64,000 nt of DNA. It comes from Fimbriimonadaceae bacterium. Its GTDB lineage: Bacteria > Armatimonadota > Fimbriimonadia > Fimbriimonadales > Fimbriimonadaceae. Positions 30,657 to 31,684 of the stretch are shown one piece after another. Within the stretch, counting starts at the first letter, position 1, and the number at the start of each line of letters is the position of its first letter. Below the pieces are notes generated by a model. That model was given only the letters and a program-made list of their open reading frames with translations. It did no database searches and was not told where the DNA came from. The translations under genes were made by a program, and so were the position numbers. The stretch covers positions 1-64,000 of the forward strand of contig JALHNM010000002.1 in the NCBI GenBank assembly GCA_022843485.1. The letters run 5' to 3'.

Positions 30657-31259
30657 ATGGGCAAGGGCTCAACGAACGTGCGCTATGCCGAGGTCGATCG
30701 GGAAGTGCCGGGCGCACGCGTCCACGTCGTCCTCGACCTCGACAGCGGCCACCGGTGCGACGCCAATACCGGCGTCCCGTTCTTCGACGAGCTCCTCGCC
30801 CACCTCGCCCGCTACGCCGGCATCGGCCTTGGGGTGTCGCTCGAGCCCGACGGCCCCGTCGGCCACCACCGAGTCATCGAGACTGTCGGCCTGTGCTTCG
30901 GCCTCGCGATCCAACGGGCCCTCGAGGACTCCGAGGCTGTTGTCGGGACCGGGGACGCCCAGATCCCCGCCGGAGACGCGCTCGTGTCCTGTGCCCTCGA
31001 CCTCGACGGCCGTCCGTTCCTCGGCTGGCACGTCGAGCTCCAGCAAACCCTCGTCGCCGGGCTCGAGAGCGAGAACGTCCGCCAGTTCTTCGAGTCGTGC
31101 GCCCTGTTCGCCGGGGCCTCGCTCCACCTGCGGCGCGAAGCGGGCTATAGCGACCAGCACGTCTGCGAGGCCCTGTTCAAGGCGTTCGGCAAGACCCTCC
31201 GCGAGGCCACGAGGCGGGCCGACCCCGGCCACGGCGTGCCGCTCAAGGGCCGGGGCTGA
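30657..31259 (+). CDS. hisB: Imidazoleglycerol-phosphate dehydratase homologue with altered active site
   Basis: HisB removes water from imidazoleglycerol phosphate in histidine synthesis using Mn ligands. The fold of both repeated halves is clear (ARVHVVLDLDSGHRCDANTGV; then LDGRPFLGWHVELQQTL). However, the FLDHML His is Glu (FFDELL, residue 45), and DHHIIE is SDQHVCE (Gln 167). HHTVED reads HHRVIET with a one-residue shift. So several metal or catalytic ligands are changed. It is either a divergent HisB or an inactive or repurposed relative. Length (200) is normal, and no his operon is nearby. Confidence 0.8.
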   Translation: MGKGSTNVRYAEVDREVPGARVHVVLDLDSGHRCDANTGVPFFDELLAHLARYAGIGLGVSLEPDGPVGHHRVIETVGLCFGLAIQRALEDSEAVVGTGDAQIPAGDALVSCALDLDGRPFLGWHVELQQTLVAGLESENVRQFFESCALFAGASLHLRREAGYSDQHVCEALFKAFGKTLREATRRADPGHGVPLKGRG

Positions 31260-31261
31260 GG

Positions 31262-31267
31262 TACCCT
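31262..31267 (+). promoter_or_regulatory. Possible -10 box for the selenoprotein gene
   Basis: TACCCT ends 9 nt before the ATG at 31277, with no good Shine-Dalgarno sequence in between. The gene could also be read through from hisB-like, 17 nt upstream. Confidence 0.35.
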
Positions 31268-31276
31268 GGGCAGCCC

Positions 31277-31534
31277 ATGGTCGTCACCGTCACGTTCTGC
31301 ATGGCGTGAAACTACGCCCCTCGCGCCGCCGGTCTGGCGGAGCAACTGTTCACCGCCTTCCAATCCCCCGTGGGGCAGCAGGGCCAACTGGAGTCCGTCA
31401 CGCTCGTCCCCGGCGGCGGCGGGGTGTTCGACGTCCGGGTCGACGGGGACTTGGTCTATTCGAAACACCAAACCGGCCGCCACGCCGAGCCAGGCGAAGT
31501 CCTCGCCCTCATCAAGGACCGACTCCACCCCTAG
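31277..31534 (+). CDS. SelW/Rdx-family selenoprotein with in-frame TGA (Sec)
   Basis: Read with TGA at 31307-31309 as selenocysteine, this is an 85-residue protein. It begins MVVTVTFCMAUNYAPRAAGL and continues with VTLVPGGGGVFDVRVDGDLVYSK. The CxxU motif (C8, U11) plus a Tyr-x-Pro stretch matches the SelW/SelT/SelH thioredoxin-like (Rdx) family, as does the GVFDVRVDG strand pair and the C-terminal helix EVLALIKDRL. Directly after the TGA lies a hairpin with a GGTCT loop, like the E. coli fdhF SECIS. Reading TGA as stop leaves a ten-residue peptide. It lies 17 nt after hisB-like. A redox role is inferred from the family. Confidence 0.9.
31323..31343 (+). promoter_or_regulatory. Bacterial SECIS element
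   Basis: CCGCC (31326-31330) pairs with GGCGG (31336-31340), extended by CG-CG pairs after one G-A mismatch, and closes a GGTCT loop (31331-31335) 21 nt after the TGA. SelB-binding hairpins in bacteria lie within this distance, and the E. coli fdhF loop also contains GGUCU. Confidence 0.75.
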
Positions 31535-31540
31535 ACTCCC

Positions 31541-31612
31541 TTGGAGTGCGTGAGCTCGCTAACGACGGACTGCGTGAGCTCGCTCACGCTCTGGAGTAGT
31601 GTGCTCGCACAC
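31541..31612. repeat. Two-hairpin intergenic repeat, copy A
   Basis: A first hairpin GCGTGAG-CTCG-CTCACGC (31572-31589) is followed by TCTGGAGTA and a second hairpin GTGTGC-TC-GCACAC (31599-31612). A degenerate extra first hairpin precedes it (31548-31563). Copies B (59561) and C (61864) share the layout, but with paired differences in the stems. Confidence 0.8.
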
Positions 31613-31684
31613 CCCGCGAGCGAAGCGAGCCCCGCCGCTAGGTCCCGGCCGAGCCCCGGGCCCCGATGACCGTAGGAGAGCGGT

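Follow-up and report, generated by a model that had tools for sequence, protein, structure and literature searches.

SelW-like selenoproteins with a CxxU motif are an established bacterial family (PF10262), described since 2005 and among the commonest selenoproteins of marine bacteria (PMC1088965, PMC1794560, PMC2398784, PMC13188914). The family is noted for having few Cys homologues in selenocysteine (Sec) users (PMC1794560), and a 2026 review lists it as SelW-like, PF10262, CxxU, "predicted with high confidence" (PMC13188914). Prx/SelW gene pairs are known from marine metagenomes. Insertion of Sec is well established in E. coli, where the pathway comprises SelD, SelA, SelB and an mRNA hairpin, the SECIS element; that of fdhF is a small hairpin downstream of the UGA, with a GGUCU loop about 18 nt from it.

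The locus described here lies in a 64,000-nucleotide stretch of a Fimbriimonadaceae genome (phylum Armatimonadota), referred to below as the window. Comparison with its relatives makes it almost certain that the product is a selenoprotein belonging to the SelW-like (SELENOW-like, Rdx, PF10262) family of bacteria, with a probable SelB-dependent insertion of Sec and a probable redox role. The domain, the CxxU motif, the position of Sec, the SECIS within the coding region directly downstream and the rarity of Cys versions are the same as in the known family; only the host differs, the gene here being a stand-alone one behind a putative hisB with no Prx/SelW pair seen around it. An earlier note on this DNA, made from the letters alone, was right that SelW-type proteins are often selenoproteins and overrated the novelty of this one, CxxU SelW-like selenoproteins being already known from the four sources cited first above. 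What is new is only a member of this known family in the little-studied Armatimonadota, and the understanding of Sec coding and of SelW function is unchanged by it. Among titles and abstracts of open-licence papers, no earlier report on selenoproteins of Armatimonadota or Fimbriimonad- taxa was found.

The coordinates of the gene, its elements and the Sec machinery of the host are collected in Table 1. The TGA at codon 11 is the sole internal stop of the frame, and with TGA read as Sec (U) the product has 85 residues (MVVTVTFCMAUNYAPRAAGLAEQLFTAFQSPVGQQGQLESVTLVPGGGGVFDVRVDGDLVYSKHQTGRHAEPGEVLALIKDRLHP); the frame, the codon and the CxxU motif had been given exactly in the earlier note. The Rdx profile PF10262 matches the whole protein on both sides of the TGA (68.2 bits against a cut-off of 22.6; residues 3-81 on profile positions 2-74 of 74), and NCBIfam TIGR02174 (CXXU_selWTH) is passed with 50.9 against a cut-off of 34.2. 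The full-length match to NF041051 (SelTWH_Campy), at 82 bits, falls just short of the cut-off of 88, so by that rule the protein is not an equivalog, the cut-off being a curated naming threshold for one subgroup and not defining for the wider family.

Table 1. Positions of the SelW-like gene, its elements and neighbour in the window, and of the Sec machinery in the host assembly (C, contig).
Feature	Position	Strand	Basis
SelW-like (Rdx family) selenoprotein gene	31277..31534	+	ATG at 31277, 85 codons, TAG stop at 31532-31534; translation with TGA=U, Pfam Rdx E = 7.4e-19, AlphaFold model
CxxU active-site motif C8-M-A-U11	31298..31309	+	sequence; no variation at C8 or at the residue-11 position among 17 relatives
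In-frame TGA predicted to be read as Sec, codon 11	31307..31309	+	same codon TGA in 38/39 phylum homologues and 79/80 best-matching genome homologues
Predicted bacterial SECIS hairpin	31323..31343	+	fold -13.2 kcal/mol; spacing conserved, stem covarying; lost in both Cys homologues
Upstream gene, putatively imidazoleglycerol-phosphate dehydratase-like (hisB)	30657..31259	+	ORF list; neighbour, not part of the mechanism
selA	C16:10715-11935		profile match, 468 bits
selB	C1:276997-278826		profile match over cut-off
tRNA-Sec (selC)	C1:351703-351792		72.3 bits, cut-off 47; ARAGORN tRNA-SeC, anticodon TCA
selD	C1, around 550240-551208		profile match, 306 bits; frame read through TGA

The AlphaFold model (pLDDT 91.7) gives the protein a SelW/thioredoxin-like fold, in which strand 2-8 leads through the CxxU loop into helix 14-28. 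Bacterial SelW-family chains fill the first 21 places among the PDB matches of the model (E = 6.5e-8 to 1.6e-5), ahead of mouse SelW and, after it, thioredoxins, and a sequence-profile search retrieves the same PDB set. The predicted fold is the same as in the Rdx/SelW structures 2fa8, 3dex, 2obk, 2ojl, 2oka and 2p0g and mouse SelW 2npb; the best bacterial chains superpose with rmsd values of 1.0-1.4 A across some 80 columns, and identity to the bacterial chains is 27-40%. The Rdx/SelW identity proposed in the earlier note is thus borne out by profile matches that run across the TGA and by a predicted fold that agrees with SelW-family crystal structures.

The further claim that standard annotation easily misses this gene is fair, because a plain ORF listing (table 11, at least 60 aa) shows no forward-strand ORF for the frame and gives at this locus only a spurious 304-aa frame across the gene and one antisense ORF. 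The antisense ORF (31145-31528, minus strand) was rejected as a gene; its likeness to antisense ORFs of the relatives mirrors the coding strand. Ordinary gene finders take TGA as a stop, and the locus is an example of a gene dropped by plain ORF calling.

The gene is present in 17 of 61 near genomes, all 17 with TGA at the same codon, frames otherwise open to the end without frequent frameshifts, and a conserved protein sequence after the TGA. An extra TGA counted in one of them (G016), considered as a second Sec codon, is the terminal stop. Across Armatimonadota the gene was found in 39 of 291 genomes; G122 has Cys at this codon, and the other 38 carry a single TGA. When bacterial and archaeal genome contigs were scanned with search patterns that omitted the TGA position and so gave Sec no advantage over Cys, though with query rows that were all Sec forms, 177 relatives were returned; the best 80 of these comprise 79 TGA forms and one Cys form, and their records bear the names Armatimonadetes, Chloroflexi, Gemmatimonadetes, Planctomycetota, Actinomycetota, Acidobacteria, Deltaproteobacteria and others. 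Homologues with Sec or Cys at codon 11, whose absence would have refuted the reading of the earlier note, are therefore at hand.

The gene also keeps company with selA, which is present in 35 of the 39 phylum genomes with the gene vs 107 of 252 without it (Fisher p = 2e-8) and, among 50 near genomes of good quality, in 15 of 15 with the gene vs 15 of 35 without (p = 8e-5); shared ancestry inflates these p-values, and the direction is as expected. The four gene-bearing phylum genomes with no selA match (two of them 72-73% complete, one 88% and one 92%) are likely explained by assembly gaps. The Cys form in the phylum (L064, G122:C22:51749-51976) reads CVPC, has lost the hairpin and sits in a genome that still holds selA; it is a natural Sec/Cys exchange.

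The hairpin after the TGA, GC-G-CCGCC[GGUCU]GGCGG-A-GC, has a core stem at 31326-31330/31336-31340, the loop at 31331-31335 and two outer G-C pairs at 31323-31324/31342-31343. A hairpin with a GGTCT loop had been proposed just after the TGA; hairpin and loop are real, but the location was wrong, as the loop begins 21 nt downstream. The loop is like that of fdhF, whereas the distance is 21 nt instead of about 18 nt and the stem sequence is different. It falls within the four limits that the published model of bacterial SECIS elements sets: a loop of 5 nt and stem of 5 bp (apical loop 3-9 nt, upper stem 4-16 bp), the loop GGUCU (G in the first two loop positions), 21 nt (16-37 nt from UGA to apical loop) and -13.2 kcal/mol (MFE of -7.5 kcal/mol or lower) (PMC13188914). 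On both strands of the window, the codon 11 TGA is the only TGA with a 5-bp GGTCT hairpin at SECIS distance. In this GC-rich sequence the MFE does not stand out from shuffled versions (z = -0.9; 34/200 shuffles fold as well), and a 70-nt fold around the hairpin favours another pairing. Thermodynamic folding was dropped as proof of a SECIS, and comparative evidence was relied on because the folding energy is not beyond chance.

Among the 17 near relatives, the spacing from TGA to loop is identical in all, loop position 2 is G in all and all five core pairs are present in 16. The pair TGA+20/+32 connects wobble bases that belong to different codons, so the protein hardly constrains it; the two bases are paired in 74 of the 86 distinct sequences vs 52.6 after shuffling (p = 0.0002) and in 17/17 near relatives vs 12.7 shuffled (p = 0.0014), by shuffles that ignore kinship among the sequences. 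Despite this, the occurrence of several pair types (CG, TA, GC, GT, TG) on different branches would be hard to explain without selection on the stem. The loop codon specifies Gly or Ser in 13 near relatives, always as GGT for Gly (7/7) and AGT for Ser (6/6), codons that are rare in the genes of the window (28 of 345 Gly codons and 5 of 152 Ser codons, respectively). In both Cys homologues examined the hairpin is lost, with two of the five pairs left. Conserved spacing, a covarying stem, the choice of loop codon and loss in the Cys forms together make a strong comparative case for a putative SECIS, and the covarying hairpins collected are a usable test set for selenoprotein finders. Six homologues, mostly Acidimicrobiia-type records (L073, L077, L084, L090, L099, L124), have another sequence after the TGA (GCCGTG AGCGC ...), without the five-pair hairpin in this register, and may use a shifted or different SECIS form.

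The host assembly (2.96 Mb, 98.8% complete, 20 contigs) holds selA, selB, tRNA-Sec and selD, as had been expected in the earlier note, all above curated cut-offs. The profile match to selD starts only at position 56, missing the first 55 positions; the frame runs upstream through a TGA at about C1:550276 (L147, G000:C1:549500-552000; MRLTHLVACAGUASKLGP...) and supplies the missing part, and a truncated N-terminus was rejected. With this in-frame TGA in CAGUASK, the host SelD is a second predicted selenoprotein. Armatimonadota, through Fimbriimonadaceae, thus joins the groups in which the Sec system is complete and two or more selenoproteins, here SelW-like and SelD, are predicted. In one genome (G008) the SelW-like gene has selA close by, and in another (G003) the two share a contig. 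The machinery is patchy in the order: nine sampled genomes of one genus, g37 (G041, G043, G053, G055-G060), gave no selA, selB, selD or tRNA-Sec match at the thresholds used, which suggests lineage-wide absence or loss in this genus.

Other readings of the UGA were weighed against these data. Since TGA is one base away from TGC and TGT and the assembly is a draft, a Cys codon of a CxxC Rdx protein could have become TGA, leaving a pseudogene, or have been misread in sequencing or assembly. Independent genomes already refute this by sharing the TGA, which stands at this codon in all but one of the phylum homologues and all but one of the best-matching 80 from many phyla; the downstream frame is moreover conserved at the protein level and the hairpin appears to be under selection, and the chance that this reading is right is negligible. 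A general or leaky change of the code, with UGA decoded as another amino acid (e.g. Trp or Cys) and without Sec, is very improbable: UGA is a stop elsewhere in the genome (in the neighbour ending at 31259), the full Sec system is present, this UGA stands at the redox position and its SECIS hairpin is conserved, even if the frame would be equally open were UGA simply a sense codon.

It is likewise extremely improbable that the UGA is a true stop that ends a 10-residue leader peptide, the similarity downstream being a relic or the product of an internal start. The short peptide MVVTVTFCMA would indeed precede the TGA, and the folding energy of the hairpin is not significant; against this, conservation of Cys8, upstream of the TGA, goes hand in hand with that of the residues downstream, all within a single Rdx domain, which would lose its first strand and active site if translation ended there, and the stem covaries at wobble positions.

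For the preferred reading, a SelW-like selenoprotein, a SelB-dependent insertion of Sec at the UGA modelled on the E. coli pathway is very well supported by the anatomy of the locus. SelD would make selenophosphate, SelA would convert Ser-tRNA-Sec to Sec-tRNA-Sec, and SelB-GTP carrying Sec-tRNA-Sec would bind the hairpin loop and deliver Sec at the UGA on the ribosome. The product would be a stand-alone thioredoxin-like redox protein, and its fold and motif make a selenol/thiol redox cycle of U11 with C8 likely. The Sec11 selenolate would attack an oxidised or disulfide substrate, with Cys8 then resolving the intermediate as a selenenylsulfide; the thiol reductant that recycles the protein would be, at a guess, thioredoxin or a low-molecular-weight thiol.

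Two overlapping searches together gave 117 TGA and 2 Cys forms in the hairpin-bearing SelW branch, from many bacterial phyla. Because this branch almost always has Sec, and one Cys form sits in a selA-bearing genome, it is possible, though rather unlikely, that the reaction of the SelW-like protein requires selenium, as opposed to using it as an adjustable improvement on sulfur, and that Armatimonadota is one more lineage of this sort. An earlier proposal made the point less strongly, in a form in which Sec is the original form and Sec users have few Cys homologues (PMC1794560).

The upstream gene, which we take to be hisB-like from its sequence, ends 17 nt before the selenoprotein start, with TGA as its stop; the gene downstream is presumably DedA-like, by the same kind of recognition. 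No conserved neighbourhood was found among six Armatimonadota loci, a same-genus relative and the window, the neighbours differing every time, and gene neighbourhood was dropped as a guide to what the protein does. Direct and inverted repeats (GCGTGAGCTCGCT twice, GTGTGCTCGCACAC and GCGAGCGAAGCGAGC) crowd the spacer that separates the selenoprotein gene from the DedA-like gene (31545-31640). Full matches to GCGTGAGCTCGCTMACG occur in the host genome only in this spacer, and looser palindromes (GCGAGAGCTCGCTCTCG) are found three times at 26-bp spacing on contig C13.
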